From Flavobacteriales bacterium (GTDB lineage Bacteria > Bacteroidota > Bacteroidia > Flavobacteriales_C > GCA-002722245): a stretch of 64,000 nt of DNA. The notes under the pieces are model-generated. The model searched no databases and was not told where the DNA came from. It saw only the letters and a list, made by a program, of their open reading frames with translations. How positions within the stretch are numbered: position 1 is the first letter of the stretch; each line of letters opens with the position of its first letter. The position numbers and the translations under genes were made by a program. Positions 18,293-36,635 of the stretch are shown piece by piece. The stretch spans positions 1-64,000 of the forward strand of contig PBLA01000028.1 in assembly GCA_002722245.1 (NCBI GenBank), given 5' to 3'.

Positions 18293-18299
18293 AATAAAT

Positions 18300-20240
18300 T
18301 TATTTTCCGGTAATCTTAAATTCCGTTCTTCTGTTTTTGGCTTTTCCCTCTGTTGAATTATTATCTGCAATGGGTTGATTATCTGCGTACCCCTCATAGG
18401 ACAACCGATCTTTACCAATGTTATGCATGATTAACCATTCATATACAGCGCGCGCTCTGTTCTTAGACAAAGCTAAGTTATGTTCTTTCCCTCCTTGGTT
18501 ATCTGTATGCCCTCCTATTTCAATTTTCAAGGTTGGATTTTTATCGAGATATTCCTTTAATTTCATTAATTCAACTTCACTTTCTGTTTCTAAACTATAT
18601 TCGTCGATTGGAAAAAATATATTTTCAAGGACAACAGATTTTCCTATCTCTATAGGTTGTAATGGGACATCACGCTCAACAGGTTTTAAATTTGAGGCCT
18701 TCTGTAATTCAAAATTTTCAGAGTAAAACAAATACCCCTCGTGCGCTGCATTTAATGCGTATTGTTTCCCGTATGGCAAACAAACCAAAAACCGTCCTGC
18801 ACCATTGGCTGTTGATTCTACAACTTTTTCTCCTTTATCTAACTCTATAAGTTCAAAGTGTGCACTTAATGGAAGCGTGGTTTTTGCATCATAAACTTTT
18901 CCCTTCATGTATGTGACAGGCTTTGGCTTATAGTCTTCGGGTAATTCAAATTTATATATATCCCAATCTCCATAACCTCCCTCTCGATCGGAAGTCATGT
19001 AGGCATAATTCCCCATAGCATCAACTGTGAAATCAAACTCGTCTTTGGAGGTATTGATTGGGAAACCAAGATTAACGGGCTTACCCCATGTGCCATCAGA
19101 TTGCTTCTTACTCATAAAAATGTCATTGTCTCCAAGTCCTGGATGGCCATCTGATGAAAAGTACAAGGTTTGTCCATCAGGATGGATAAACACCCCCTCT
19201 TCTCTCCCTGGTGTATTGATTATACCACCAAGGTTTTGAGGCCTAGACCACCCTTTTCCTGTTAATTTTGACACGTAAATATCATTTTCACCATATCCGC
19301 CTGGACGAGTACTGGAAAAATACAGTGTGCGCCCATCGCTACTCATACTGGGTTGCGCATCGTGTGATCGATCGTTCAATTGCGGCCCTAAGTTTTTTGG
19401 GCTACTCCATTTCCCATTCCTTAAAAAGGAAACAAAAATATCACAGCTTCCATGTCCTACTCTCCCTTTACCATAAAATCCATACTGATCACAAATTGTA
19501 AAAAACATGGCATTACCATCAGGAGTAAGCGCGTGTCCTCCCTCATTAACCTCTGTATTTAAAGGTGCTCCAATATTGAATGATTTTCTCCAGTTATCTC
19601 CATACTTAAATGACGCATAAAAATCTTCTTGAAAACCATCATGGTTTCTGTCATCGGGAATTGTTCTTGTGTATATCAGGGTAGACATATCAACAGACAA
19701 AACAGGTAAATACTCGCGTAATTCAGAATTAATATTAGGACCTAGATTTAGTGGTTCAATTTTGTTTGGCTTTTTGAGGGCATTTAACGAAAACTTACAG
19801 GACTCTAAAACATAATTGGCTTTCCATCTAAGCTTTGATTTTGGATGATAATTTTTTAAATACTCTTCGGCTTTTTGCTTTCCTTTTTCATATTGCTGCG
19901 TTTTAAAATATAAATCAGCCAAGTCACAATGTAATCTTGGAATATGATGAGGATTTAAAGCTAAACCTGTCTCCAATACCGTAATTGCCTCGTTGTATTT
20001 AGCTTGTAAAGAAAAAATAACACTCTTTACTTCATATGCTTCAATGAATGAAGGCTCCTTTTTGATGGCTTTATTGAGTAAGGGAAGGGCTTGATCAAAG
20101 TACCTCAAATCAAATTTACTTACCGCTTCATTATAGAGTGAAATAATTTTTTTATTGGATGTTGAATGCTGAACTCGTTGCGAAAAAACAACGCTAGAGA
20201 TAAAAATCAACATACCTAACAATGTAATATTTAATTTCAT
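18300..20240 (-). CDS. PorE-like outer membrane protein: TPR + PD40 beta-propeller + carboxypeptidase-regulatory-like + OmpA C-terminal domain
   Basis: TPR N-terminus; PD40 repeats (ALTPDGNAMFFT, SMSSDGRTLYFSSTRPGGYGENDIYVS, FIHPDGQTLYFSSDGHPGLGDNDIF); MKGKVYDAKTTLPLSAHFEL; OmpA motif IEIGGHTDNQGGKEHNLALSKNRARAVYEWLI. Confidence 0.85.
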   Translation of the reverse strand: MKLNITLLGMLIFISSVVFSQRVQHSTSNKKIISLYNEAVSKFDLRYFDQALPLLNKAIKKEPSFIEAYEVKSVIFSLQAKYNEAITVLETGLALNPHHIPRLHCDLADLYFKTQQYEKGKQKAEEYLKNYHPKSKLRWKANYVLESCKFSLNALKKPNKIEPLNLGPNINSELREYLPVLSVDMSTLIYTRTIPDDRNHDGFQEDFYASFKYGDNWRKSFNIGAPLNTEVNEGGHALTPDGNAMFFTICDQYGFYGKGRVGHGSCDIFVSFLRNGKWSSPKNLGPQLNDRSHDAQPSMSSDGRTLYFSSTRPGGYGENDIYVSKLTGKGWSRPQNLGGIINTPGREEGVFIHPDGQTLYFSSDGHPGLGDNDIFMSKKQSDGTWGKPVNLGFPINTSKDEFDFTVDAMGNYAYMTSDREGGYGDWDIYKFELPEDYKPKPVTYMKGKVYDAKTTLPLSAHFELIELDKGEKVVESTANGAGRFLVCLPYGKQYALNAAHEGYLFYSENFELQKASNLKPVERDVPLQPIEIGKSVVLENIFFPIDEYSLETESEVELMKLKEYLDKNPTLKIEIGGHTDNQGGKEHNLALSKNRARAVYEWLIMHNIGKDRLSYEGYADNQPIADNNSTEGKAKNRRTEFKITGK

Positions 20241-20308: not shown

Positions 20309-21298
20309 TCAGAGGTTGGACGAACATTTAAATGCTTTCCAACGATTTGAGTAAAGATCCATATCTACTACTAATTCTTTTCGAGAATATTGCTCTATTT
20401 CAAACACACCTTTTGTTCTTTCCTCTAAAACCTCATAACGTTCCAAGGTTAAAAAAGTAGCAGCTATTATGTAATTCACTGGAAATAGGAAGGCTTTTTT
20501 ATGAGATTCTTTGTAATTCGCAGACGCTAAAAGCTTCTTAAATAGAAGAACTTCTTTTTTAAAGCTTTTCTTCTTTTTATCAACTGCAACAATTGGATTA
20601 GCAAGCGTTTGCCTACCTTCTAAAAAATCTTCCCTTACATCAAAAAGATCATCAAGGTATTGGGCTACACCACCCAATTGATATAGAAAGACCTCCTCCT
20701 CTTTTGTTGGTTTTTTATTTAACATATTACACATGCAAAACACGGTAGAGGCTCCTTTTTCAAATCCAATTCGCTTAATTTCCCTCCATGGCAATGGTTT
20801 TGTTGACACTAATCTTTTGCTCTCTAATTGTGCTTCAAATACACGTTGAGCCTGCGTCAAATACAATGGAATATCTTGAACATATTTCTGGATCCTTGAT
20901 GAAAATTCGCTAAACAAACGTTCTATTTCAGTTTCTGCCACATACGTTAAGGGGTGATTAACAAGAGATTGTATTTTTTGTCCTGGCAAATTTACCTTAT
21001 CAAAAAAGTCATCATACAAAGGTGCCAATGCACTTATATTTACAATGGCTTTCAATTCATTATCTTGAATTCGATCTCCACGTAATAAACAAAATCCTGC
21101 CGTCCACATGGTTTGAATACGCACATAATCACGCATTCTCTTTTGATTCTCACTATCTATGAGTTGATTCCAATTTGGAAAAAATGGTTTTATCTCTTCA
21201 AGCAATTCAGAATAGTATCGCTCTGTTCTTCTGAAATCGTGAAAGAGTTTGTAATAAAAACGGAAATAGCGTAAAAGATTATAAATCGATTTAAGCAT
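20309..21298 (-). CDS. Class I isoprenoid synthase-like protein, paralog A
   Basis: All-alpha ~330 aa with two Asp-rich motifs (PLYDDFFDK and QYLDDLFDVREDFLEGRQTLAN) and conserved C-terminal RKELVVDM. Start overlaps the upstream paralog stop by 8 nt. Confidence 0.65.
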   Translation of the reverse strand: MLKSIYNLLRYFRFYYKLFHDFRRTERYYSELLEEIKPFFPNWNQLIDSENQKRMRDYVRIQTMWTAGFCLLRGDRIQDNELKAIVNISALAPLYDDFFDKVNLPGQKIQSLVNHPLTYVAETEIERLFSEFSSRIQKYVQDIPLYLTQAQRVFEAQLESKRLVSTKPLPWREIKRIGFEKGASTVFCMCNMLNKKPTKEEEVFLYQLGGVAQYLDDLFDVREDFLEGRQTLANPIVAVDKKKKSFKKEVLLFKKLLASANYKESHKKAFLFPVNYIIAATFLTLERYEVLEERTKGVFEIEQYSRKELVVDMDLYSNRWKAFKCSSNL

Positions 21299-22280
21299 TG
21301 GAAATTGAGAGCTTTACCATTTTATACCAATTTGATTTATCCTCCATATCACAAATTAATTGTTTTCGTTCTAATTTTTGGATATCAAACACTCCTCCAT
21401 TTTGTTTTTGAAGTTGAATATACTGTTGCCCACATAAGGTTCCTCCATTTACCATAAGCATCAATTCACGAATAAAAGTATGCTTATGAATAACATTATA
21501 GTTTAGGTTTAAAAACAAATCCTTAAGTTTCTTAACCTCAATTTCATACCTGTTAAAAACAACATTAAAATCAGAATCAAACTTTGTAGCTATGGTGTTT
21601 ACACCTTCTTCCAAATCATCCCATAGATCAAATAAATCATCCAACAATTGGCCAACGGCTCCAAGTTGATATAATGCCTCCTCTTCTCCTTCAATGAGTG
21701 GATGTTTTAAAATACTCCTGAATAGAAGTGCGCTGTACCCTCCTTTCTCAAAAGCAATTTTCTCTACCTCCTCAAAAGACAAGTTGGGGTTTAAAAGCTT
21801 TTTACTTTCCTCCTGTCCGTAATACAAGCCTTCAAAATATTGAGCAAACAAAGCGGGGTTTGGTAAATTTCTGTAGACCTCTTTAAGTAAATGAATAAAC
21901 AAACCTTCTAAAGGTGTTTTAGGGACAAAGTTCGAAGGAGCCTTCATCAGTGCTTTGATTTCATCTCCTGACAGGTTGTTTTTATCAAAGAAGTCATCAT
22001 ACAGAGGAAGGCATGCACAAAAATACACACAAGCTTTAAGTTCTTTCTCTGATATAGATCTTCCTGCTAAACCACAAAGGCTATAATCTAAGAGTGAATG
22101 GACTTGCACATATTGAGTCATGCGTAATTCAAAATCCTTTTTTTGTATAATCGCTTTCCATTTTGGGTCTTTGACAATTTCCTTTTTTAATTCAGATAAT
22201 GTACGATTAATGGCTTTCACTCGAATATAAGTTCGAGGAAGGATAATGAAATAATGTAAAAAATTAAAAAATGGTCGCAT
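21291..22280 (-). CDS. Class I isoprenoid synthase-like protein, paralog B
   Basis: Asp-rich motifs PLYDDFFDK and QLLDDLFDLWDDLEEGVNTIAT; conserved C-terminal RKQLICDM; same length as paralog A (329 aa). Confidence 0.65.
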   Translation of the reverse strand: MRPFFNFLHYFIILPRTYIRVKAINRTLSELKKEIVKDPKWKAIIQKKDFELRMTQYVQVHSLLDYSLCGLAGRSISEKELKACVYFCACLPLYDDFFDKNNLSGDEIKALMKAPSNFVPKTPLEGLFIHLLKEVYRNLPNPALFAQYFEGLYYGQEESKKLLNPNLSFEEVEKIAFEKGGYSALLFRSILKHPLIEGEEEALYQLGAVGQLLDDLFDLWDDLEEGVNTIATKFDSDFNVVFNRYEIEVKKLKDLFLNLNYNVIHKHTFIRELMLMVNGGTLCGQQYIQLQKQNGGVFDIQKLERKQLICDMEDKSNWYKMVKLSISNA

Positions 22281-22390
22281 ACATTAAACTCATCCCCAAA
22301 GTAACTGAATCTTCTTGGTTTTATAAACTTTGAGCCTATTATATTGCGAAACCTTTTCCACAATTAGCGTAGAAAGTGTAAAACATTTAC

Positions 22391-23080
22391 ATGAATTGTG
22401 TAATCATCGATGACGATCCCATACAGCACACTATTTTATCTCAATATATTGAAGAAATTGAAGATATTGAATGCATAGGTTTCTTTAAAAATCCGATTGA
22501 ATTTTTAAAAGTTCAAAACAAGCACTCGTTTGATTTCATTATTTTGGATGTAGAAATGCCAAAAATGAGCGGAGTTGATTTATTGGAATCCTTTACCTCA
22601 CCAATTAATGTTCTGGTGATGTCCTCCAAATCTCAGTATGCGATTGAAGTCATCAACCACAATGTTCTGGGGTATTTATTAAAGCCTGTAAAATTTGTTG
22701 ATTTTATGAAAATGATGAATAAAATAAAATCAAAGCTATCAATCTTAACACCGCATCATCTAGAGGAAAACAACACTCTTTTTATAAAGAGCAATGGTAT
22801 GCTCCACAAGCTTAATTATTCAGAAATCACACATATTGAAGCCGCTGTTGATTACATTGAAGTTTTTACCCTAGATAAAAAATATCTTGTACACTCATCC
22901 ATGAATAAAACGGAAGAAAAGTTACCAAGTGATATTTTCTTTCGTATTCATCGATCTACGATTATCAATGTTAATCACATCCAACGAATTGATAAGGAAT
23001 TTATTGAAATTGGTGAACACACTGTTAAAATTGCCCCCAGCAGAAAGGATTCATTTAAAACATTCATTAACAGCCTCTAA
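22391..23080 (+). CDS. LytTR-family response regulator (REC + LytTR DNA-binding)
   Basis: REC motif FDFIILDVEMPKMSGVDLL; LytTR core FIKSNGMLHKLNYSEITHIEAAVDYIEVFT...FFRIHRSTIINVNHI. Confidence 0.92.
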   Translation: MNCVIIDDDPIQHTILSQYIEEIEDIECIGFFKNPIEFLKVQNKHSFDFIILDVEMPKMSGVDLLESFTSPINVLVMSSKSQYAIEVINHNVLGYLLKPVKFVDFMKMMNKIKSKLSILTPHHLEENNTLFIKSNGMLHKLNYSEITHIEAAVDYIEVFTLDKKYLVHSSMNKTEEKLPSDIFFRIHRSTIINVNHIQRIDKEFIEIGEHTVKIAPSRKDSFKTFINSL

Positions 23081-23099
23081 CACTCAGACTTAAAGTGAC

Positions 23100-23714
23100 T
23101 TAAATAAAAATATAATCCCTAGAGTAACGGGTGATTAAATCTTTTGTGAATTCATATTCCTCTTTTATTCTTCCCAAAAGCGGCACCTTTGTAGCCTTTA
23201 ATATCACCTCTTCAGATGATGGATTGGGTTCTCCATTAAATATAATACCAAGGACATTTACTCCACTGCCTTCAAGGACCTTGAGCGTGAGAAGTGTATG
23301 ATTAATACTGCCTAAATAGTTTCTGGAAACAATAACGACCTCAGCACCCCAGTTTTTAGCTAAATCAAACATAGTTTCCCCTTTGTAGTTGAATGGAACA
23401 AGCAAACCTCCTGCTCCCTCAATTACTAATGTATTTTGGGTCTCTGGCACCTTTAAACGCCCCCAATGTATTTTAACGTCCTCTACCTCGGCCGCATGAT
23501 GTGGTGAAGCAGGTGTTTTTAAACGATAAGCCTCAGGGTGAAAAACTGTTTGTTTGGACTCTACTAGCCTTTTAACACGCTCCGTATCCGTTAAATCAAG
23601 ACTTCCGCACTGAATCGGCTTCCAATAGTCAGCCTGAAGAGCCTCGGTGAGAATAGCCGAAATGATTGTTTTCCCTACATCTGTCCCTATTCCTGTTACA
23701 AAAACCTTTCTCAT
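23100..23714 (-). CDS. bioD: ATP-dependent dethiobiotin synthetase
   Basis: FVTGIGTDVGKTIISAILTEAL...YWKPIQCG...VIEGAGGLLVPFN. Confidence 0.93.
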   Translation of the reverse strand: MRKVFVTGIGTDVGKTIISAILTEALQADYWKPIQCGSLDLTDTERVKRLVESKQTVFHPEAYRLKTPASPHHAAEVEDVKIHWGRLKVPETQNTLVIEGAGGLLVPFNYKGETMFDLAKNWGAEVVIVSRNYLGSINHTLLTLKVLEGSGVNVLGIIFNGEPNPSSEEVILKATKVPLLGRIKEEYEFTKDLITRYSRDYIFI

Positions 23715-23736
23715 ATAGACACTTAAAGTTAATACT

Positions 23737-24615
23737 TTAATTCACTTTTTTAAGCGATAACTCATAAACAATTGGTGTTCTTGGGGGAACAATACCTGTT
23801 GATGAACCCTGAACACCAAAACCAAGCCAAGAAGGAATGAGTAAGAGAACACGGTCACCCTCTCTCATCATGGATAATGCCTCTTCAATTCCTTTAATAA
23901 CTTGTAATTCGTTTCCTAAATAAAACTCTTGAACACCATTTTTGAGTTGAGAGGTGGAATTAAACTCTTCTCCAGATAAAAATCGACCTGTGTATTGTAA
24001 TTCCACTCTTTTCCCAAATCCTGCCTCCTCTCCTTTTCCTCTTTGTAAAAAACAATATCGTAGCCCTGTAATGGTTTCCTCTACTGAAATATTATGCTGG
24101 GACTGAAATTCATCCATAACCATCTCCTCTCTTAGAACATCAAAGTCTTTTGTTTCTGTTCTGTTAATCCATTCTACGAACTTTTTTCTAGCTGCCAAAA
24201 ACTCTTCAATATCATAGATACTATCAATTTGAATTTGCGCGAAGAGTAGCGCTGTATCGGGCATTCCTCGAATAGCAAGAATACCGTCCAACTCCTCTTT
24301 TAATTTTGAAACAGGGAATATAGCAGAGGCAATTTCTTTTTCATTAATTAAACTTAGAGCTTCTAATAATCCGCCGGATTCATAAACATCATTCACTTTC
24401 AATAATATTCGTGAAGCATCAACCTCCTCTCCCTTAAAGTTTTTTAGACTGTATTTGAATTGAAGGTAATTGTTTTTTTGAATTCTTTTTTTACCTTCTT
24501 CAATGGTTTCAAGCTTGAAAAATAGTCCGCTGCTTTGTTTGGAGTACCCTTTAAAAGGATGATCACACGCTGTTAGGACAACGATCAAAACCAAAATTTT
24601 AAAACCTCTTCTCAT
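23737..24615 (-). CDS. FKBP-type peptidyl-prolyl isomerase lipoprotein
   Basis: Lipobox LTAC; C-terminal FKBP domain (VELQYTGRFLSGEEFNSTSQ...VIKGIEEALSMMREGDRVLLLIPSWLGFG). Confidence 0.85.
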   Translation of the reverse strand: MRRGFKILVLIVVLTACDHPFKGYSKQSSGLFFKLETIEEGKKRIQKNNYLQFKYSLKNFKGEEVDASRILLKVNDVYESGGLLEALSLINEKEIASAIFPVSKLKEELDGILAIRGMPDTALLFAQIQIDSIYDIEEFLAARKKFVEWINRTETKDFDVLREEMVMDEFQSQHNISVEETITGLRYCFLQRGKGEEAGFGKRVELQYTGRFLSGEEFNSTSQLKNGVQEFYLGNELQVIKGIEEALSMMREGDRVLLLIPSWLGFGVQGSSTGIVPPRTPIVYELSLKKVN

Positions 24616-25145
24616 TCATTAACATTCTTTACAGTAAGATTATATATTACTGTGGATAAAGGAGGAATTTTTTCAGTATCGCCACTAATTCCGTGCGCTC
24701 TATGTGAGGGTAAAATTATAATTGCTTTTGATCCTGATTTCAGCAATTTAATCGCTTCATGTAAACCACTTTCTTTCTCTGAATTAGCCACTCTGAATTC
24801 ATCCAGTTTTTTTTGTGTGGTGTATAAGGTATCTCCATTAATCTTTGTTACAACATAATCAACAACAACATGCTGTCCATCTTGAATTTGCTCTCCTTTC
24901 CCTGATTGATAAATGTAATAGTAAACACCTGTTTCTGTTTGTTGAGCGGGTATTTGATGTCTTTTTAAATACCCCTTAATTTGAGCTTCTTCTTTTTGTG
25001 TAGAATTTATTAAGGCTTTTTCAATAATTTTATTTCGCTCTTCCTTTGACATCCCTTCTAAAGGATCAACATCATGAGACTCTCCTGAGGAATTATCGCA
25101 TCCGAAGACTACAACAATCAAACATATCCAGAAAGCTTTATGCAT
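24612..25145 (-). CDS. FKBP-type peptidyl-prolyl isomerase lipoprotein, GldI-like
   Basis: From ATG 25145: MHKAFWICLIVVVFGC lipobox, then FKBP domain (VVVDYVVTKINGDTLYTTQ...AIKLLKSGSKAIIILPSHRAHG). GldI is a known FKBP-like lipoprotein of gliding Bacteroidota; the specific assignment is inference. Confidence 0.75.
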   Translation of the reverse strand: MHKAFWICLIVVVFGCDNSSGESHDVDPLEGMSKEERNKIIEKALINSTQKEEAQIKGYLKRHQIPAQQTETGVYYYIYQSGKGEQIQDGQHVVVDYVVTKINGDTLYTTQKKLDEFRVANSEKESGLHEAIKLLKSGSKAIIILPSHRAHGISGDTEKIPPLSTVIYNLTVKNVNE

Positions 25146-26118
25146 GAATGTTTTTTTTGAATTTTTCAATCGCATCCTCAAGACTATCACTACTCATTCC
25201 ACCAGCGGCATTAATATGCCCTCCTCCATTAAAGTGTGTTCTCGCAAATTTATTCACATCGAAATCGTCTTTAGACCTAAACGAAATCTTAATGATATTC
25301 TTGTCTTCTCGAAAAAAAGCAGCGCATTTAATGTGAGGCATTGATAAACCATAGTTAACGATTCCTTCCGTATCTCCTTTTTGAATATTAAAGGTTTTAT
25401 GATCCTCTTTTGTGATTTTAAACAACGCTGTTTTTTGATTATCCAAAACTTCCATATTCATTAGGCAATGCCCGAGAAGTTTTAATCTTCTTTTTGTGTT
25501 GCTATCGTATATACGACGATGCACCATACTATGATCTGCCCCTTTTTTTATTAACTCCCCTGCCACTCTATGAGTATTTGGTGTGGTTGACGGAAATCGA
25601 AACGAACCTGTATCCGTCATTATTCCACAATATAAAGCCTCTCCTAGGTCTCCATCAATTAATTCCTCATCGCCTAAACGTTCGATAAATTCATACACCA
25701 TTTCAGCCGTAGAGCTAGCTGTGGTTTCACTAATCATAAGATCTGCGAAATCATCGGGTTGTTGATGATGATCGATCATTACTTTTTTACCTGAGGCATC
25801 TTGAACTAAATCGCCCACTTCCTCTATTCTATGAAGCGCATTAAAATCTAAACAAAATAACACTTCCGCCTCCTTTGCACGTGCTTTTATTGATTCATTG
25901 TCTTCCCCCCAGGTCAGTACCTCATCATTCCCTTTTATCCAACGTAAAAAAGCAGGATATTCTGTTGGTGCCACTACAGTAACTTTACAACCTTTCTTTT
26001 TCAGCACACCTGCTAAACCGAGAGAGGACCCCATTGCATCGCCATCGGGATTTTTATGCGTTACAATAAACACAGCGGGTTGACGGTTTAAAATAGATTT
26101 TAATTCCTGAAACTTCAT
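25138..26118 (-). CDS. nrnA: DHH/DHHA1 family bifunctional oligoribonuclease/PAP phosphatase NrnA
   Basis: VTHKNPDGDAMGSSLGLAGVL, MIDHHQQPDDFADL, C-terminal FNGGGHINAAGG. Confidence 0.92.
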   Translation of the reverse strand: MKFQELKSILNRQPAVFIVTHKNPDGDAMGSSLGLAGVLKKKGCKVTVVAPTEYPAFLRWIKGNDEVLTWGEDNESIKARAKEAEVLFCLDFNALHRIEEVGDLVQDASGKKVMIDHHQQPDDFADLMISETTASSTAEMVYEFIERLGDEELIDGDLGEALYCGIMTDTGSFRFPSTTPNTHRVAGELIKKGADHSMVHRRIYDSNTKRRLKLLGHCLMNMEVLDNQKTALFKITKEDHKTFNIQKGDTEGIVNYGLSMPHIKCAAFFREDKNIIKISFRSKDDFDVNKFARTHFNGGGHINAAGGMSSDSLEDAIEKFKKNIHA

Positions 26119-26250
26119 AGCACGAAAATAAGGATTTAAGAGGCTGGAAAAAGCGATGTTGAAAAATTGTTCTTCCTTCTGTTTTATAAGTTGCTCACCC
26201 CCTTTTCAATATAACTCCCTTATAAATCATAAGGTAAATACAATAAAAAA

Positions 26251-26272
26251 GCGCTATCGAAATCGATAGCGC
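26251..26272 (-). terminator. Terminator hairpin downstream of rpmB
   Basis: gcgctatcga/tcgatagcgc perfect stem with flanking A and T runs. Confidence 0.8.
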
Positions 26273-26297
26273 TTTTCATTTAAAACGTATATATCTC

Positions 26298-26534
26298 TTA
26301 TTTCAAGAACCCTGCTGCTTTTGCTTCTTTCATAGCAACTTCGATTCCTTTTTTATCAATCTCTCTTAAACCAGCCTTTGAGACTCTAAGTTTCACCCAC
26401 TCGCTCGTACTTGGTACGAAAAACTTCTTATCGAATAAGTTTGGTTCGAAAGTTCTTTTGGTTCTATTCAATGCATGCGATACATTGTTTCCAGTGATCA
26501 CTTTCTTTCCTGTAATTTGACAAACTTTAGACAT
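26298..26534 (-). CDS. rpmB: 50S ribosomal protein L28
   Basis: [33 protein letters not shown]...[14 protein letters not shown]. Confidence 0.97.
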
Positions 26535-26630
26535 GGCTAAATTTCTTTAAAAATAAATAGGAGTGCAAAAATATGTAATTATTTCTAATTGGTAAAGTTT
26601 TTTCTAAAAAAATTGACTGTATTGAGCAAA

Positions 26631-28700
26631 TTATGAATTTGCTGTATTGATCCCTATAAAGCAAACGTCATCTACCTGATCCTGCCCTGTTTTCCAATCG
26701 TGAAATGTTTCTTCAAGCATTTTTTTCTGATTGGTAATATCTTGTTGTGAAAGCTCAACGAGCAATCTTTTTAATCGCCTTATTTTGAACTTTTTTCCAC
26801 TTGCCCCACCAAATTGATCCTGAATTCCATCCGAACACATATAGATGTTATCTACCCCGCGCAATGACACAATGTGATTTGTAAATGGTTGACGATATTC
26901 ATACCTACCCACAGGTTGCTTATCGGGTTTATAAACAGCCAGTTCTGTGCCGCTAACAGTATACAACGGTATATTTGCTCCCGAATACTCAAGTTGACGT
27001 TGTTCAAAATCAATTAAACAGAGTGCTATATCCATTCCGTCTCGAACAGCATCTGCACTTTTATCAAACGTTTCTTCTACATATTTGGTGAGTGCATCCA
27101 AAATTTGAGCGGGTTTAGTTAAACCATATTCATTTATACAGGTATTTAACCCATTATTACCTATCATGCTTACAATGGCTCCTGGAACGCCATGTCCTGT
27201 TGAGTCTGCACAAGCAATAAGCACTTTCTCTCCCAAAGAAGCTACCCAATAAAAGTCACCACTTACAATATCTCGTGGCTCATAAAACACATAGGAAAAG
27301 GGTAAGCATATTTTCATCAATTCATTGGACGGCAAGATGGCTTTTTGAATTTTTTTAGCATACTCAATACTTGCTGTAATTTGATCTTTCTGATCCGCAA
27401 TTGTTTTATTCATCTTTAACAATTGCTTATTGCTCCTATTCTGTCGTTGAGAAAAGAGCAACAGCGATAATGCAATAATACCAACAGCAAAAATAGCAAT
27501 TATGAGATAGGCTACTTGCGCCTCTTGCCGCTCTTGATCTCGTTCTTGACGAACAATCTCTAATTCTTTTTCTGTATTTTCAAAATGAAGAGTGGCGATA
27601 TCCTTTGAAAAAACTTCATGTCGCTCTTGGGCTTGTTTATTCATTTCATCCATGAGTGCCCTATATTTTTCAGAAGCTTCAAATGCCTTTTGATATACTC
27701 CTGCTTTTTTATATGTCTGTAACATATGCTCGTAGAGGAACGCTTTATTAAAAGAGAAGTTTTTAGGGTTTTCTAGGATTTTCTCTGCAGATAAGAACAT
27801 CTCATCAGCAGCATTATAATTACCCAGCTCATAATAGAGTATTCCAAATCTTATTTTTGTAACATATTCCAAATCTTCATGATCTATACCACCTCGTTTT
27901 CTAAAGTCAACGATACTGTCTAAACAACGCTGAAAAAACTTTTCAGACTCCGACAAGGAATCTTCACTCAGGTATATGGAGCCTCGTAATTCTAAAAACC
28001 AAAAAGACCATTTAATATGTTGCTTTAAATCATGATGTAATTCATATTCTTGAATGATGTTATACCCTACTTTCGCAACACTATCTGCTGCCCTGTAGTC
28101 CTTTTGTTTGTTTAAAAGATCCGAGTAATCCAATAAATTAATCGCATATTCAACTGTATCTCCGTAGGCGAGCGAAATAGGCAGGGACAAATGATTAATT
28201 TCCAACGCCTCATGATCCTCATGGATATCCATGTAATAAAGAGAGAGACTTTTGTATAACTTAAGTAAAGAAAGCGTGTCTTCATCTGCGATGCATTGAT
28301 GAATTCCCATTTGATGATAAAAAACACATTGATCGCTTCTTTTTTGACGGGCGTGCTCACATAAATTCAAGTAAGCAAGATTTCTGTCTTTATAGGCTGG
28401 TGAAATTTCTAAATCATAACTGTCTCGCAGTTTAATTGCTCTATAGTAAATTTCTGATGCAAAATCCAATTTACCTGAAGCCGAAGCAAGAGCTCCTGCT
28501 TTCGTATATTCACAATAAGCTTTAATAAATTGCTTTTGTTGGCATAACTCATCTGCTTTAATGAGAATTTTTCGCAATTGATCCTTTTGCCCAACACTAT
28601 GATCGAATGTATATGCAGAATCCTGGGCGATTGTCCCCCAAATAGAAAACAGAATAATTCCTGTTGTTAAAACCAACCGCTGCATTGTTCGCCCCATCAA
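26631..28700 (-). CDS. Membrane TPR protein with SpoIIE-type PP2C phosphatase domain
   Basis: TPR N-terminus, single TM, then SpoIIE core (SYVFYEPRDIVSGDFYWVASLGEKVLIACADSTGHGVPGAIVSMIG). Confidence 0.9.
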   Translation of the reverse strand: MMGRTMQRLVLTTGIILFSIWGTIAQDSAYTFDHSVGQKDQLRKILIKADELCQQKQFIKAYCEYTKAGALASASGKLDFASEIYYRAIKLRDSYDLEISPAYKDRNLAYLNLCEHARQKRSDQCVFYHQMGIHQCIADEDTLSLLKLYKSLSLYYMDIHEDHEALEINHLSLPISLAYGDTVEYAINLLDYSDLLNKQKDYRAADSVAKVGYNIIQEYELHHDLKQHIKWSFWFLELRGSIYLSEDSLSESEKFFQRCLDSIVDFRKRGGIDHEDLEYVTKIRFGILYYELGNYNAADEMFLSAEKILENPKNFSFNKAFLYEHMLQTYKKAGVYQKAFEASEKYRALMDEMNKQAQERHEVFSKDIATLHFENTEKELEIVRQERDQERQEAQVAYLIIAIFAVGIIALSLLLFSQRQNRSNKQLLKMNKTIADQKDQITASIEYAKKIQKAILPSNELMKICLPFSYVFYEPRDIVSGDFYWVASLGEKVLIACADSTGHGVPGAIVSMIGNNGLNTCINEYGLTKPAQILDALTKYVEETFDKSADAVRDGMDIALCLIDFEQRQLEYSGANIPLYTVSGTELAVYKPDKQPVGRYEYRQPFTNHIVSLRGVDNIYMCSDGIQDQFGGASGKKFKIRRLKRLLVELSQQDITNQKKMLEETFHDWKTGQDQVDDVCFIGINTANS

Positions 28701-28839
28701 AATTAAAATTACCGAATAAAGTCAATTGTAACAAATATCATTGCAAATACTATTACCCTTTCAAGCATCTTTTTTTGCAGCAACCTTTAATCATAGATAA
28801 AAACCAATCACTTCATTAACCATTTTTTTGAAACAAAAA

Positions 28840-28861
28840 AACCCTTGATTTCTCAAGGGTT
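28840..28861 (-). terminator. Terminator-like hairpin
   Basis: aacccttga/tcaagggtt stem flanked by A and T runs. Confidence 0.7.
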
Positions 28862-28883
28862 TTTAATTTTTTACATTTATAAA

Positions 28884-29315
28884 TCAAGCATCTAAAATAG
28901 AGTCTCCATGATTAATTGAATCTTCATATTGGGCAGAACCAAAACCTAATATTGGCCAAAAAACAATTGGTAAAAAAATAAGTCCTGCTGTAAAACCACC
29001 ACCTTTACCAAAACGAACTGAAATTTGATGCGTGAGTTTAATTGCAAAAATGATATTTGCAATAGGAATAAAAAACATTAACAACCACCACAATGGTGCT
29101 TTTGCAACCTTAAAAAGAACAATAATGTTATAGATTGGTACCAGTATGGCCCAACCTGGTTGTCCCGCTTTCGCGAAAACTTTCCATCTCGCCGCAATTA
29201 AAACAACTGATAAAATAGATAAAAATACTACGGCTCCAATACCTATCCCCGCAAAGATAGATCCTGCATCACTGAGTTGATCTTGAGAGTACTGCAATTG
29301 ATTAATTTCTTCCAT
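28884..29315 (-). CDS. DUF5684-like membrane protein
   Basis: WKVFAKAGQPGWAILVPIYNIIVLFKVAKAPLWWLLMFFIPIANIIFAI, typical DUF5684 pattern. Confidence 0.8.
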   Translation of the reverse strand: MEEINQLQYSQDQLSDAGSIFAGIGIGAVVFLSILSVVLIAARWKVFAKAGQPGWAILVPIYNIIVLFKVAKAPLWWLLMFFIPIANIIFAIKLTHQISVRFGKGGGFTAGLIFLPIVFWPILGFGSAQYEDSINHGDSILDA

Positions 29316-29504
29316 AACTTAAAATATTTTGATTTTTGTTTACGCTAAATTAGAATAGAAAATTAACTAGGCAATAGTTAATTAATTTTATTCAAAAATT
29401 TCATGCCTAAAAAAAAACTTGTTTAAAAAGGTAATAAACATGTAAAATTATGAAGGTTAAAAAGTCTTCTTGATACCTTTACTCAAATATACCTTTTAAA
29501 AAAA

Positions 29505-29526
29505 AGCCCCAACATTTGTTGAGGCT
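29505..29526 (-). terminator. Terminator-like hairpin downstream of pnp
   Basis: agcccc(t/a)aaca...tgttgaggct imperfect stem after an A-run. Confidence 0.6.
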
Positions 29527-29549
29527 TTAGATTATATAACTACAGAAAA

Positions 29550-31718
29550 TTAAGCTTCCTCTTTCGATTCTTCTTTTTTCTCTTTTCTTTCTGGTTTTGG
29601 CAACAATGCTTTTCTTGAAAGCTTGAATTTCCCAGATCGCTTATCAATTTCAAGAATTTTTATTTCCAATTCTTGTCCTTCTTCCAGCTCATCCTTCACA
29701 TCCTTAATACGCTTATGGGCTATTTCTGAAATGTGTAACAAACCTTCTTTACCAGGTAAGAATTCGATAATTGCTCCAAAATCAAGGATTACTTTAACCT
29801 TTCCTTTGTATGTTTCTCCAGCTTCAGGAACAGTAGTTATTCCTTTAATAGTAGCAACCGCTTTATCAATTCCTTCTTTGTTGTTACCAGCAATAGCAAC
29901 TGAAGCAATCTTATCTGTTTTTTCTTCTAATACGATTGTTGTCTCAGTTTCTTTTTGAAGTTCTTGAATAACTTTTCCTCCAGGACCGATAACAGCACCC
30001 ATAAATTCAGTTGGGATAGTAAACCCAATAATTCTTGGAGCGTGAGCTTTGAAGTCTTCATTTGGTTTTTCAATGGTTTTAGCCATTTCATTTAAGATAT
30101 GTAATCTACCTTCTTTCGCCTGGTACAATGCTTTAACTAACACTTCGTATGAAAGACCATCGATTTTAATATCCATTTGTGTAGCTGTAATACCATCTTT
30201 AGTACCTGTTACTTTGAAATCCATATCTCCCAAGTGGTCCTCGTCTCCCAAGATATCTGAAAGCACAGCGTATTTTCCAGTTTCACTATCGTATATTAAT
30301 CCCATTGCGATTCCTGATACTGGCTTAGAAATTTGGATACCTGCATCCATTAATGCTAAAGTACCCGCACAAACAGAGGCCATTGACGAAGAACCATTAG
30401 ATTCTAAAATATCAGAAATAATTCTAATCGTATATGGAAAATCTTCACCTGATGGAACAACTGGCTTTAAACCTCTCCATGCTAAGTTTCCATGCCCTAT
30501 CTCTCTTCTTGATGTCCCTCTAATTGGACGAGCTTCACCAGTTGAGAATGGAGGGAAGTTATAGTGTAAGTAAAATTGGTCTTCTCTTTGAACAGAAACA
30601 CCATCGGACATTTGAGCATCTAACTTAGTTCCTAATGCTAATGAAGCTAGTGATTGAGTTTCACCTCTTGTAAAGATTGCTGAACCATGCGCTCCTGGTA
30701 AGTAATCAACTTCAGTCCAGATATCTCTGATTTTATCAGTCGCTCTACCATCTAAACGCGAACCTTCGTTTAATACGCAATCTCTAACAGCAGCTTTTTG
30801 AGCTTTTTTAAATCCTGTAGAAATGTGTCCTCCTAACTCTTCTAATTCCTCATCAGAGTATGTCGCTTTTAATTCTTCATACACTTCAGCAAAAGCAGCA
30901 GATCGTTCTTTTTTAGAAGATCCTTTCTTAGCAATATCATATATCTTTTGATAAACAGCTTCTTTAACTGATGCGTAAACCTCTTCATTTGATTCTGGTG
31001 CAGGATATTCTCTTTTAGTTTGGGCTTTCTCAACTTGAGCAGCTAAATCCAATTGAGCCTGACATTGAAGTTTAATTACTTCGTGAGCTGCTTTAATTGC
31101 TTCAATCATATCCTCTTCGGACACTTCACTCATCTCACCTTCAACCATCATAATGTTATCCATAGTTGCAGCGATAACCATATCCATATCAGCCTCAGCT
31201 AATTCTGCTTTATTAGGATTAACAATAAATTCACCATTTACTCTGGCTACTTGTGCTTCAGAAACTGGTCCCATAAAAGGGATATCAGAAACTGCTAGTG
31301 CAGCTGAAGCGGCTAAACCTGCTAGTGATTCTGGAGTTGAAGCTTCTTCATCATATGAGATTAATTGAAGCATAACCTGCGTTTCTAATCTATAATCGTC
31401 TGCAAATAAGGGTCGTAATGCTCTATCAACTAATCTACAGATTAAAATTTCTGTTTCAGTTGGACGAGCTTCTCTTTTAATATACCCTCCTGGAAATTTA
31501 CCAGCAGCCGTCCATTTTTCGCGGTAGTCTACTGATAACGGGAAGAAATCAATCCCATCTCTTAACTCTGTAGATGAAACTACAGTAGCCAGTAACATTG
31601 TTCCTCCTTGTTTTACTACTACAGACCCGTCAGCTTGCTTAGCTAACTTTCCTGTTTCGATGGTAATCGTTTTACCACCTGCCAACTCAATTGTTTGGCT
31701 TTTTGCTTGAATACTCAT
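29550..31718 (-). CDS. pnp: Polyribonucleotide nucleotidyltransferase
   Basis: Two RNase PH domains, KH ([24 protein letters not shown]) and S1 ([28 protein letters not shown]) domains. Confidence 0.97.
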
Positions 31719-31888
31719 TTATAATCTAATTTATTTGAGCACAAAGATAGGGTTATTTGGGAGATATCGGAAGTTATCAAGAGATATCAGAAGACATCGG
31801 AATACTTTTTTTCAATTTTATATTTCGCTTTAATCCTATATCACCGAAAAAATAGTGACAATCCTCCTGTATATTTCAGACAAACAAA

Positions 31889-31913
31889 AAAGGGCATCCA
31901 ACTGGATACCCTT
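31889..31913 (-). terminator. Terminator-like hairpin downstream of rpsO
   Basis: aaagggcatcc/ggatacccttt with flanking A and T runs. Confidence 0.65.
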
Positions 31914-31934
31914 TTAATGTCTCGTGAATGAGAT

Positions 31935-32210
31935 TTATTTTCTTAATCCTAATTCGTTAATTAACGATCTATATTTTTCAATATCTTTCGCCTTTAAATA
32001 ATCAAGAAGTGAACGTCTTTTTCCTACAGCTTTAATCAACGATCTTTTTGTAACAAAATCTTTTTTGTTGTTTTTAAGATGGTCTGTTAAATGCGTAATC
32101 CTAGCAGTAAATAAGGCGATTTGCCCTTCAGTAGAACCTGTATCTGTTTCTCCTTTACCAAATTTAGCAAAGATTTCTTTTTTCTTATCCGTAGTAACAG
32201 CTAATGACAT
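31935..32210 (-). CDS. rpsO: 30S ribosomal protein S15
   Basis: FGKGETDTGSTEGQIALFTARITHLTDHLKNNKKDFVTKRSLIKAVGKRRSLLDYL. Confidence 0.97.
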   Translation of the reverse strand: MSLAVTTDKKKEIFAKFGKGETDTGSTEGQIALFTARITHLTDHLKNNKKDFVTKRSLIKAVGKRRSLLDYLKAKDIEKYRSLINELGLRK

Positions 32211-32301
32211 AACTATATTTTTTCAAAAAATTGGAGTGCAAAGATAGTTAATCTTTCGAATTAAGCAACCCTTAATCAAATATTTTTTAACCTGAGTTCG
32301 T

Positions 32302-32309
32302 TATATTTG
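32302..32309 (+). promoter_or_regulatory. Putative Bacteroidota -7 promoter element TATATTTG
   Basis: TAnnTTTG consensus 13 nt upstream of ATG 32322; the ORF-track TTG start (32307) lies inside it. Confidence 0.5.
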
Positions 32310-32321
32310 AGGCTATATTCT

Positions 32322-34316
32322 ATGAATTTGAGCTTAACGTTTCTATATCCTTCTATTCTATGGGCACTTCTTTTTGCGGTTATCCCAGTTATACTTCATC
32401 TTTTGAATTTAAGGAAATTCAAAACAGTTTATTTCTCTAATGTTGATTTACTTCAATCAATTAAGGAGGAGACAAATAAAACCCGAAACATTAAAAACTG
32501 GCTTATTTTACTCTTCAGGGTGCTGTTTCTTGTTTTTTTGGTTTTTGCTTTTGCTTTCCCTGTTTGGAAGGAACAAAAGATCAAACAAGAAGAGGTTGTG
32601 AGCCTTTATATTGACAATTCATTAAGTATGGATGCAAATGGCATAGAAGGCAATAAACTAGAAAACGCGAAAGCTTTTGCAGATCAAATTATAAAATCAT
32701 TATCCCCAAACGGAAAGGTTCATCTCATTACGAATGACTTTGACGGCAATCATCAAATTGAACTAAACAAATTCAAAGCGCAAGAAGAAGTTTCAAAAAT
32801 CCAACCCTCTGCCATTAGTCGTTCTTTTGACAATATTCTTGATCGACAATCTCTTTTCTTTCAAAATAAGAATTATCAACCTCAGATTTTCTGGATTTCC
32901 GATTTTCAACAGTTGGCACATAATAAAATGCATAACCCCGATAGTTTTGATATTAACTTAAGTTTACTTCGAAGTGTTACTGCTGCAAACATTTCTATTG
33001 ATAGTGTTTGGTTTGAATCACCAGTTAGAAAAAAAAGAGGAACGGAAGCCTTACAATTTAAAATCACGAATCATGGTGAAGAGCTTATTAAAAACATCAA
33101 GGTATCCTTAAAAATAAACAATAGAATAAACGCGATTTCAATTGATCAGCTTAGTCACGGAACGCACAAAAAAGTATTTGAATACCAAGTCCCTAACGAC
33201 ACCTTAATTGAAGGTGAAATAAGCATCCAAGATGAAAATTTACTTTTTGATAATAAGATGCTTTTTTCTTACATCATTCCAAAACAGCAAAAGGTCTACT
33301 TAATTACCTCTAAGCAAAATAATATAAAAGCTATTGTTCAAAAAGTTTTTGGAGCAGATAGTAGTGTGGTTCTTACAACAAGTAGTCCTGCCAACATTGA
33401 TTTTAATGAACTAAATTACCAAGACCTTATTATTTTAGGTGAATTAAACGAAGTGTCACAAAGTTTAATTGTAGAGCTAGAGAAACTCACCAAATCAGGA
33501 AAGGTAGTAGCCGTTTTCCCTGGAAACAATATAAATATTGACAACTACCAAAATGCCAGTGTTTTTTGGGGGGGCTCTAAGTTTGAAACAAAGGATACAA
33601 GCCGCGTTGAAATTGGAAGTATTCTTAAAGAGCACTCTTTTTTCGCTGGTGTTTTTGAACCAAAAGAGATTCGAGAAAATAAGAAAGAGGCTTTCCCTTC
33701 TCTATCATTACACTATTCGATTGCACCTTCTGAAAGGGCTGAATCTATAATCTTTAAAGAGAATGGCACTCCTTTCCTCGTTGCATCAAACAACTTTTAT
33801 TTGTTTGCAAGTGGGCTGTCAAAAGAGCATTCCAATTTCGCTCAAAAAGCACTGATTGTACCGTTATTGTACCAAATGCTTTTTAAGGCTATCCATACTA
33901 CTCCAATACAATATTTCATTTCCCCAGGCTCTCAAATACATACACCAAATCAAGTGCGTAAATCTGCGTTTCTTCTTTATGGTCAACAGCAGTTTAAGGT
34001 GAGAATACAACATAATCATTGTGCTCTCCCTCCTGAAGCGAACGAAGGACACTATAAACTAATGGTGAATAATGCTGCGGTAAGTGCGTTTTCATTAAAC
34101 CAGACAAGAGAAGAAAGCAAAACAATACAGAATCAAATAAACCTTCTGAATGAGTTAGAGAAATCCCCCCATTTTTCAAGTTTAGAAATTTCAGGTAATC
34201 AAAGTAGCAATTCGAGTTCAATTGCTAATCAAAATGGGTCGCTCTGGTTAAATTGTTTGATTTTTGCGTTAATCTTTCTTTTTTTAGAAATGATTTTTAT
34301 TCGAATTAAATTTTGA
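32322..34316 (+). CDS. BatA-domain/VWA-like membrane protein
   Basis: MNLSLTFLYPSILWALLFAVIPVILHLLNLRKFKTVYFSNVDLLQ (BatA N-terminus), VWA-like YIDNSLSMDANG, C-terminal TM. Start corrected to ATG 32322. Confidence 0.88.
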   Translation: MNLSLTFLYPSILWALLFAVIPVILHLLNLRKFKTVYFSNVDLLQSIKEETNKTRNIKNWLILLFRVLFLVFLVFAFAFPVWKEQKIKQEEVVSLYIDNSLSMDANGIEGNKLENAKAFADQIIKSLSPNGKVHLITNDFDGNHQIELNKFKAQEEVSKIQPSAISRSFDNILDRQSLFFQNKNYQPQIFWISDFQQLAHNKMHNPDSFDINLSLLRSVTAANISIDSVWFESPVRKKRGTEALQFKITNHGEELIKNIKVSLKINNRINAISIDQLSHGTHKKVFEYQVPNDTLIEGEISIQDENLLFDNKMLFSYIIPKQQKVYLITSKQNNIKAIVQKVFGADSSVVLTTSSPANIDFNELNYQDLIILGELNEVSQSLIVELEKLTKSGKVVAVFPGNNINIDNYQNASVFWGGSKFETKDTSRVEIGSILKEHSFFAGVFEPKEIRENKKEAFPSLSLHYSIAPSERAESIIFKENGTPFLVASNNFYLFASGLSKEHSNFAQKALIVPLLYQMLFKAIHTTPIQYFISPGSQIHTPNQVRKSAFLLYGQQQFKVRIQHNHCALPPEANEGHYKLMVNNAAVSAFSLNQTREESKTIQNQINLLNELEKSPHFSSLEISGNQSSNSSSIANQNGSLWLNCLIFALIFLFLEMIFIRIKF

Positions 34317-34371
34317 ATTCTTTTTGCAGAACAAACGTTAAATTGGCTATTTTTACTCAAATCATTTCTCT

Positions 34372-35631
34372 ATGGATGCACTGATCAAATCGGCAAAAAT
34401 CTTTAGTCCAAAATCACCTTTTCACTTGCAAACTAAGGATATTTTAATTCAAAATGGTTCTATTGTTCAAATAGGTGATGATTTGAATGGTGCAGAACAA
34501 ATTATTGAGGGAGATGATCTCTGTGTTTCAGATGGTTGGGTTGATTTATTCAGTGTAATTAGAGAACCTGGAAATGAACATCAAGACGATATTGAATCAC
34601 TTTTGAAAAGTGCAGCGAAAGGAGGATTTACTTCAATTTTAGGGGTTTCAGGGTCTGTTCCTCCAATTGATAATAAAGCGCAGCTTAAGTTTGTACAAAA
34701 CAGCAGCATGAATAACATTGTAAATTTATTGCCCGCTGGTACGATTACCGAAAAACAGAATGGAAAAGAAATCACTGAGATGTATGATATGCACCTCTCT
34801 GGTGCTGTTGCATTTACTGATGGTAAAAAAACATTAAAAAATCCAGAACTGTTAAAAAGAGCGTTGTTGTACACAAAACCATTTGGTGGTAAAATAATTT
34901 GTTATTGTGAAGATGAAACAGTTGCCAACAACGGGATGATTAATGAAGGTGAAATCGCAGTTGGTTTGGGAATGAAAGTGCGTCCTGCATTAGCCGAGGA
35001 ATTAGCGATCACACGTGATTTATATATTGCAGAATATACTGAAACACCGATACACATTACTGGGGTTTCGGCACAAAAAAGTGTTTCCATTATAAAGGAA
35101 GCCAAGGAAAAAGGAATTAAGGTAACTTGTGACGTAAATATTGCTAATTTATATTTTACAGATGAAGCACTGACTTCTTTCGACTCTAATTTTAAACTAC
35201 TCCCTCCTCTCCGATCGGAATCGGACAGACAGGCTTTAATGAAAGGTATTCAAGATGGAACCATTGATGCTGTTTCAAGTGGCCATTCGCCAAAGGATAT
35301 TGAGTCAAAATTTTGTGAATTTGATAATGCGGATTTCGGGGGAATTAGTTTAGAAGCAACTTTTGGCGCGTTGAATAAACTTGCGGATGGTGTTTTTAGT
35401 GATGAGCAAATCATAAATCTTTTAACCACCAAACCAGCAGATATTTTAGGACTGTCTCAAAAAATTGACATTAACAAACCGGCTAACTTAACATTGTTTA
35501 CCCTTTCAGGGGAGGGCACATTTGAGAAAGATCAAATTGAATGTGTGTCAAAAAACTCTCCATTTTTAGGTACCAAGCAAAAAGGATGCGTCATTGGAAT
35601 TATCAACAACAATCAAATTAAATTAAACTGA
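34372..35631 (+). CDS. Dihydroorotase-like amidohydrolase homolog lacking canonical metal ligands (probably non-catalytic)
   Basis: Colinear with class I dihydroorotase (REPGNEHQDDIESLLKSAAKGGFTS, GAVAFTDG, LPPLRSESDRQALMKGIQDGTIDAVSSGHSPK), but HxH, H.ED, HVS, PHHL and TDHAPH motifs are substituted. Confidence 0.85.
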   Translation: MDALIKSAKIFSPKSPFHLQTKDILIQNGSIVQIGDDLNGAEQIIEGDDLCVSDGWVDLFSVIREPGNEHQDDIESLLKSAAKGGFTSILGVSGSVPPIDNKAQLKFVQNSSMNNIVNLLPAGTITEKQNGKEITEMYDMHLSGAVAFTDGKKTLKNPELLKRALLYTKPFGGKIICYCEDETVANNGMINEGEIAVGLGMKVRPALAEELAITRDLYIAEYTETPIHITGVSAQKSVSIIKEAKEKGIKVTCDVNIANLYFTDEALTSFDSNFKLLPPLRSESDRQALMKGIQDGTIDAVSSGHSPKDIESKFCEFDNADFGGISLEATFGALNKLADGVFSDEQIINLLTTKPADILGLSQKIDINKPANLTLFTLSGEGTFEKDQIECVSKNSPFLGTKQKGCVIGIINNNQIKLN

Positions 35632-35645
35632 TACGATCCAACCGC

Positions 35646-36635
35646 ATGGGTTTTATTAAAAATCTATTCATTTTTCCGCATAGAATTAATTCGGTTAGGC
35701 AACAAATAAAAACTCAAAAGGTCTTTATTCATTCTTATTTACACCCTTTCCTTTCTAAATACCACGTTCAAAATGATGGCTCATTAACGGCATACGACTT
35801 TGAAAAAATCACGAATTATTATGGGATTGGATCGCCTGTACTAGCTGGTGAAGGGATTGCTCAACTTTTGAATACGCGTGTTGGGACAAAGGAACGAAAG
35901 TTATTAACCCTTATGGCAGCGATTACAGGGTTATTTGATGATTTTTTTGATCGCTCTTCATTATCATTAGAGCATATAAAAGGGTTAATGCATTTGTCCA
36001 ACGAAACTCCTCCTCAAACGGCTCATGAAAAACTATTTGTTGACTTGGTGCGTGAAATCCTTGATATTTCAAAGGATGAAAAGCGCTTATACGAACATGC
36101 CGAACGCGTTTTTAATGCGCAAGTAATGAGCTTACAACAAAAACAATTTAATTCATCTTGGCGGGATTTATTGGATATTACCTATCAAAAAGGTGGAGAA
36201 TCATTATTATTTTATCGTTGTGCTTTTTCAAAAGAAATCTCTGATCAGGAGCAGGAATGTTTGTTGAAAGTAGGAGGACTAATCCAGGTTTGCAATGACA
36301 TTTTTGATGTAAATAAAGATATTAAAGAAGGGATTAGAACATTTGTTTCTGAATCTTTGGATATTGCTCAATTAAAAATTGAGGTTCAAAAATTATATTC
36401 TGACACTTTTGATTATTGCCGTTTGGCGATTCCGCATGCCAATATGGATGGTTTTCTACAGCAAATGAAAATTATTGTTGCTCAAAGCTTTGTAGCATTG
36501 GACTTCTATTTAAGAACTCAGCATCAAAATGGCCGTTCTTTTACCCCTCAACAATATCCAAGAGAGTCATTGATTTGTGATATGGGCAAGAGAAAGCATT
36601 TACTCAAGGCTTCATATTACTGGATTTTCAATTAA
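35646..36635 (+). CDS. Class I isoprenoid synthase-like protein, paralog C
   Basis: LFDDFFDRSSLSLEHIKGLM first motif, QVCNDIFDVNKDIKEGIRTF second motif, C-terminal RESLICDMGKRK; 329 aa, same architecture as paralogs A and B. Confidence 0.65.
   Translation: MGFIKNLFIFPHRINSVRQQIKTQKVFIHSYLHPFLSKYHVQNDGSLTAYDFEKITNYYGIGSPVLAGEGIAQLLNTRVGTKERKLLTLMAAITGLFDDFFDRSSLSLEHIKGLMHLSNETPPQTAHEKLFVDLVREILDISKDEKRLYEHAERVFNAQVMSLQQKQFNSSWRDLLDITYQKGGESLLFYRCAFSKEISDQEQECLLKVGGLIQVCNDIFDVNKDIKEGIRTFVSESLDIAQLKIEVQKLYSDTFDYCRLAIPHANMDGFLQQMKIIVAQSFVALDFYLRTQHQNGRSFTPQQYPRESLICDMGKRKHLLKASYYWIFN

Follow-up and report, generated by a model that had tools for sequence, protein, structure and literature searches.

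Introduction

The NDxxSxxKE (NSE) motif of terpene synthases has an i, i+4, i+8 spacing. In canonical bacterial class I terpene synthases (PF19086/PF03936; for example Sat1646, 7e4n) it stands together with a DDxxD motif in an all-alpha fold. Structure-guided mining has revealed further terpene synthases, of classes ID, IE and IF (PeuTPS, SalTPS and NpsTPS), which lack classical sequence resemblance and often lie outside gene clusters (PMC11234867). Here, we analyse three genes of a marine Flavobacteriales bacterium (Bacteroidota; contig PBLA01000028.1 of assembly GCA_002722245.1), located in a stretch of 64,000 nucleotides that we call the window, and the family to which their products (P0001, P0002 and P0003) belong. 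We lean, with modest confidence, towards reading these proteins as non-canonical terpene synthases of class I, whose substrate would be farnesyl diphosphate (FPP) or geranylgeranyl diphosphate (GGPP) from the two trans-prenyltransferases of the genome.

The family shares with canonical class I terpene synthases the fold, the DDxxD motif, the ND pair and the spacing of the second motif, but the window proteins fall below the Pfam cut-offs, and the family has Asp in the place of both Ser/Thr and Glu and carries a C-terminal R..L..DM and an invariant KG(G). Its likeness to trans-isoprenyl diphosphate synthases (trans-IPPS, PF00348) lies in a Q..[ND]D..D block, a Lys ahead of a Gly-rich helix turn and a weak profile similarity over both motifs, whereas the family has neither GGKR nor RRG and the window proteins do not match PF00348. 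Squalene, phytoene and dehydrosqualene synthases (PF00494, including CrtM and HpnC) have the same fold and a roughly similar Q..N...D...D spacing, but there is no significant profile match to them, and SQS_PSY proteins lack an Asp directly after the Asn. The non-canonical classes ID, IE, IF and IB resemble the family in having a class I-like fold without a recognisable sequence family and often no gene cluster. Class IB (BalTS/DUF2600, 5yo8) is similar in fold, but its DYLDNLXD and DY(F,L,W)IDXXED motifs differ from the family at the corresponding columns. Class ID synthases have D(N/D), ND and RXXKD, where the family has D[DN]xxD, [ND]DxFDxxxD and R..L..DM, and membership of class ID was ruled out on these motifs. 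The comparison of motifs covered classes ID and IB, and the family would be a further case of non-canonical class I terpene synthases, set apart from class ID.

Three paralogous genes in the window

P0001 (35646..36635, plus strand) is encoded 13.4 kb beyond a tandem pair on the minus strand, in which the gene of P0003 (21291..22280) is upstream and that of P0002 (20309..21298; family profile E about 1e-98) downstream. All three are intact reading frames of 329 amino acids with an ATG start. The stop of P0003 lies over the start of P0002 in an overlap of 8 nt (21291..21298, minus strand), which is also kept in three relatives (L004, L005 and L006) and makes translational coupling probable. A full-length alignment of the proteins has 46 invariant columns; the other two are 34% and 23% identical to the first in order of position. 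They have in common DDFFD, a block of the form Q..[ND]D..FD...D..EG..T and R..L..DM; in P0002 these are found as DDFFD (96-100), Q213..DDLFD...D and RKELVVDM (306-313). Taken in order of position, the second Asp motif reads DDLFDVREDFLEG, DDLFDLWDDLEEG and NDIFDVNKDIKEG in the three proteins, and the C-terminal motif RKELVVDM, RKQLICDM and RESLICDM. On these points the sequence-only reading of this DNA was accurate: it had described three 329-residue frames at these coordinates, with [YF]DDFFD, a second Asp motif and the C-terminal signature, as paralogues of which two overlap in tandem and the third lies about 14 kb away behind a degenerate dihydroorotase gene.

Relative to their orthologues in the genus, the three genes have a proportion of non-synonymous differences (pN) of 0.20-0.30 and of synonymous differences (pS) of 0.69-0.83. 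The latter is near saturation and the former is low, hence the genes are functioning and under purifying selection at the protein level. No RNA elements were seen near the three genes, and a scan for promoters and terminators gave no more matches there than expected by chance.

The predicted fold

The model of P0001 obtained with AlphaFold2 and the family alignment is confident and all helical (predicted local distance difference test, pLDDT, 96.1; predicted template modelling score, pTM, 0.93), and places the Asp motifs at the ends of helices 81-102 and 200-220. When the model was compared with the PDB using Foldseek, the leading matches were all class I isoprenoid enzymes, and every type of them was represented: the geranyltransferase 3lom, which came first (E 8.5e-4), the beta-prene synthase 5yo8 (template modelling score, TM, 0.51), the dehydrosqualene synthase 3vjd, HpnC, and the diterpene synthase Sat1646 (7e4n), which has the highest TM among the matches listed (0.56/0.62). 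For P0001, this agrees with the isoprenoid-synthase fold that the sequence-only reading had proposed, and whose lack it had named in advance as counting against it. P0002 and P0003 presumably share the fold by homology to P0001. The matches range in E from 8.5e-4 to about 1e-2, with identities of 10-16%, and the query TM of the better soluble ones is mostly 0.43-0.56. Since all the fold matches in the PDB are distant, we place the family within the class I superfamily but outside its close known branches.

The first rank of 3lom suits an offshoot of the trans-prenyltransferases that moves the prenyl group to an acceptor other than isopentenyl diphosphate (IPP), such as a head group, a sugar, an aromatic compound or another isoprenoid; the highest TM among the matches listed, that of a diterpene synthase, speaks against it. 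The matches to CrtM and HpnC, together with the tandem and overlapping genes of P0002 and P0003, would suit head-to-head synthases of the squalene or phytoene type, the pair acting in sequence as HpnC and HpnD do. The sequence comparisons below bear on both.

The active site and its relation to known enzymes

We scanned 84,980 species genomes with DNA patterns derived from the two Asp motifs, which gave 79 loci, and built a profile on 77 members. Eight positions are invariant in the 77 rows (D98, D102, K182, Q214, D218, D221, D225 and T232), and the nearly invariant ones include Y58, E83, G183, G210, F220, R306, D312 and M313. The loci were collected with patterns from the Asp motifs, and the complete conservation of the latter is thus partly by construction; K182, T232, D225 and R..L..DM lay outside the patterns. 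The C-terminal motif has R in 92% and K in 5% of the relatives, D in 99% and M in 99%. The eight invariant residues fit Mg-diphosphate chemistry, and the invariant Asp, Lys, Gln and Thr set supports the type of active site that had been suggested from the paired Asp motifs.

The consensus of the second motif among the 77 relatives is [N71/D29]-D-[I/L/V]-F-D-x-x-[K65]-D, that is, the NSE spacing with Asp for Ser/Thr and for Glu. Matches to known families are weak: Terpene_synth_C is hit by 10 of the relatives and polyprenyl_synt by eight (best E 1.6e-4). P0001 scores 12 bits against PF19086 and 15.2 against PF03936, under the respective cut-offs of 23.7 and 26.3, and P0002 and P0003 match neither. 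None of the three matches PF00348 even at E 10. PF00494 gave no match to the window proteins and is not among the families listed for the 77 relatives.

Profile-profile comparison with hhalign shows a weak but real similarity of the family to trans-IPPS from the same clade (P=3.7e-4), extending over 133 columns with both motifs included. This link, running from mid-protein onward, and the profile matches to 3lom, 1rtr and 3q1o speak for transfer to a non-IPP acceptor, as does the resemblance of Q..[ND]D..D and of the invariant Lys in KGG to the Q..DD..D and KTG of prenyltransferases. Yet the motifs of the IPP site, GGKR (GGKRxRP) and RRG after DDxxD, are absent from all 77 relatives. As a control, among 20 trans-IPPS of the same clade RRG is present in 19 and the strict GGKRxRP pattern in nine. 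The absence of both motifs makes chain elongation unlikely, and it also counts against transfer to another acceptor, for which no consistent acceptor-pathway gene was found in the neighbourhood. Such transfer is the main rival explanation; we regard it as possible, on the unlikely side.

The head-to-head explanation fares worse. A loose Q..N...D...D spacing is found in 25 of 30 SQS_PSY proteins, but none of the 30 has the exact Q..[ND]D..D...D form, and hhalign gives no significant similarity between the family profile and SQS_PSY (P=0.22). The genome of the window already has a separate SQS_PSY gene, and most relatives have a single member of the family, not a pair. The head-to-head identity that the sequence-only reading had entertained thus finds no support, and we consider it quite improbable.

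This returns us to class I terpene synthases. The lack of IPP motifs and the NSE spacing of the second motif favour ionisation of a single substrate followed by cyclisation or elimination. The genome encodes two trans-prenyltransferases, which make FPP and GGPP plausible substrates; it also has one SQS_PSY gene, one Pyr4-like gene and no PF19086 terpene synthase. For the three proteins we infer the binding of Mg and diphosphate, the cyclisation, the substrate and the product. In the proposed mechanism, a prenyl diphosphate (FPP or GGPP) would be bound through Mg ions by a soluble all-helical enzyme. The Mg would be held by D98 and D102 of DDFFD on one helix and by [N/D]217, D221 and D225 on the facing helix, and the grip on the diphosphate would fall to K182, probably together with R306. 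Once the diphosphate leaves, a carbocation would form and undergo cyclisation or elimination, and a hydrocarbon or terpene alcohol would be released. P0001 and the tandem pair would between them make two or three products, or would act on substrates of different chain lengths.

Several observations weigh against such an assignment. The fold matches are distant, even the better ones having a TM of 0.43-0.56 and a root-mean-square deviation of 5-9 Å. The i+4 residue is Asp and not Ser/Thr, and the sensor is a Lys that, like that of prenyltransferases, belongs to a KG(G) motif; hence the active site is best described as a hybrid. Neither a P450 nor a biosynthetic cluster was seen beside the family genes of the window, and we found no member of the family with a known product.

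Distribution and copy number of the family

Scans of the three window proteins with Pfam, NCBIfam and PHROGs assigned no family, a sequence search of the PDB with P0001 returned nothing meaningful, and a plasmid collection contained no homologue. We found no paper describing the family in an open literature library, and one may exist elsewhere. Nearly all the 79 loci are from metagenome-assembled genomes (MAGs) of Bacteroidota and from named strains, among them Acidiluteibacter ferrifornacis S-15 and Paraflavisolibacter caeni LB-8. In an even sample of the phylum, nine of 218 genomes encode the family (about 4%, the genome of the window included). Outside Bacteroidota labels, there are one Chlorobiota-labelled MAG (L029) and one Acidobacteriota-labelled MAG (L078). 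The former label may be wrong, because the locus is very close to a Bacteroidota one (L030) and has an identical gene order. The family had been called lineage-specific: it is indeed restricted and patchy in Bacteroidota, but with these two MAGs it is wider than was thought. Relatives found by the profile alone keep the layout with a more variable first motif (DSWFD, DDLID). A much more divergent protein (L102, G129:C10:6428-6784) has KGGTS and QLLDDIRDVEED, and suggests, from its sequence, a wider superfamily beyond the family described here.

All three copies are present in every near-complete genome of the genus (3/3), as one would see if the trio regularly co-occurs in related genomes, a check that the sequence-only reading had proposed. 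Among less complete genomes, one (77%) has the tandem pair and another (74%) has none. Outside the genus, the profile searches gave a single copy in each genome with the family, and the genes there mostly stand alone. In the tree, the lineage of P0001 is a separate clade that lies far from the lineages of P0002 and P0003. The trios within the genus are orthologous, hence the three gene lineages predate its species.

A methyltransferase beside the genes of relatives

The METHYLTRANSFERASE lead concerns an S-adenosylmethionine (SAM) methyltransferase that adjoins the synthase gene in seven loci, with 32-91% identity between copies. It is upstream on the same strand in three loci (L029, L030 and L048), convergent in three (L034, L038 and L053) and divergent in one (L018), and the seven loci fall in three parts of the synthase tree. 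Pairing of a methyltransferase with a terpene synthase is established, for example for sodorifen (PMC9440906). In these relatives, the two enzymes might make methylated (homo)terpenes, as for 2-methylisoborneol and sodorifen, with the genus of the window using unmethylated substrates. This would refine our preferred assignment and does not compete with it.

When the genomes of the seven adjacent loci are set aside, the methyltransferase is found in nine of 26 family-bearing genomes and in six of 148 genomes of the phylum, a difference (Fisher p=2.7e-5) that ignores shared ancestry and uses comparison genomes unmatched by taxonomy, and is hence a lead only. The taxonomic family, which we tried as a matched control, comprised four genomes, all with the synthase. 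Among solved structures in the PDB, the methyltransferase is closest to MitM, to a sugar O-methyltransferase and to generic N-methyltransferases rather than to enzymes that methylate prenyl diphosphates; a geranyl diphosphate C-methyltransferase is among its weaker relatives. In two distant Bacteroidota genomes where no synthase was found (L176, 4402-6608; L177, 4480-12001), an MpaB-like oxygenase, the methyltransferase and a very large protein (>1450 aa) are adjacent. The MpaB/rubber-oxygenase-like neighbour hints at isoprenoid substrates for the methyltransferase in these genomes too. The gene is absent from the genus of the window, and overall we judge the production of methylated terpenes rather unlikely.

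Other genes in the window

The window also encodes an MpaB/rubber-oxygenase-like protein (5147-6340, plus strand; PF09995, E 2.4e-14) and, overlapping it by 4 nt, a Pyr4-like membrane terpene cyclase (6337-7041, plus strand; PF25129, E 2.2e-14), both above cut-off. The pair is conserved in this order in five genomes of the taxonomic family of the host (G000, G005, G006, G007 and G009), and resembles a small Bacteroidota unit of the meroterpenoid type. It had been proposed that the three proteins feed this pair, which lies at 5147-7041. Both genes are real and within the same 64 kb, but the synthase family occurs without Pyr4 in G001 and G003, of the same genus, and in G008, of the sister genus, while G005, G006, G007 and G009 have Pyr4 and MpaB without the synthase family. 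Since each occurs without the other among relatives, we regard the family and the unit as independent in this clade; the proposal is contradicted and we hold it to be extremely improbable.

Catalytic dihydroorotases have an HxH metal-ligand motif. The dihydroorotase-like gene 14 bp upstream of that of P0001 (34372..35631, plus strand) has VDLFSVIREPG at this site, without the metal ligands; its product passes the NCBIfam pyrC_multi cut-off (302 vs 279 bits) and is probably a non-catalytic PyrC'. A BatA-like gene, the dihydroorotase-like gene and that of P0001 have the same order in two relatives (L050 and L069), which we take as synteny shared within the genus rather than demonstrated membership of a pathway. 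Downstream of the tandem pair, a gene at 17846-18418 (minus strand) encodes an HSDR_N-like restriction-type nuclease domain (PF13588), with the same neighbour in L004, L005 and L006, and next to it lies an OmpA/PD40 gene (18300-20240). A conserved gene cluster around the family was considered and rejected. Most of the neighbours are generic genes tied to their lineage (tatC/queA, ftsY/gmhA, a GMC oxidoreductase, sucC), and for this reason we do not read shared synteny as a pathway.

Conclusion

A bolder version of our assignment, which we think unlikely as a whole, is that the family forms one more non-canonical class among the class I terpene synthases, specific to Bacteroidota and their neighbours and invisible to mining based on clusters or on Pfam. 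In several lineages it would be coupled to a dedicated prenyl-diphosphate methyltransferase and make methylated terpenes. In the genus of the window it would have expanded to a trio of enzymes, with translational coupling, and perhaps a heterodimer, for two of them. More soberly, the sequences and the model make the family a good candidate for terpene synthases of a new group. It offers a clean set for experiments: a fold predicted with confidence for one protein, invariant residues at eight positions, two genes in tandem, and representatives among named strains. Even if the enzymes turn out to be ordinary, a profile has been gained for proteins missed by the libraries that we searched. Canonical terpene synthases were nearly lacking from the Bacteroidota sampled, PF19086 being found in one of 198 genomes. 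If our assignment is true, the family, encoded by about 4% of the Bacteroidota sampled, would be one of the terpene routes of the phylum, from which new skeletons could readily be obtained.

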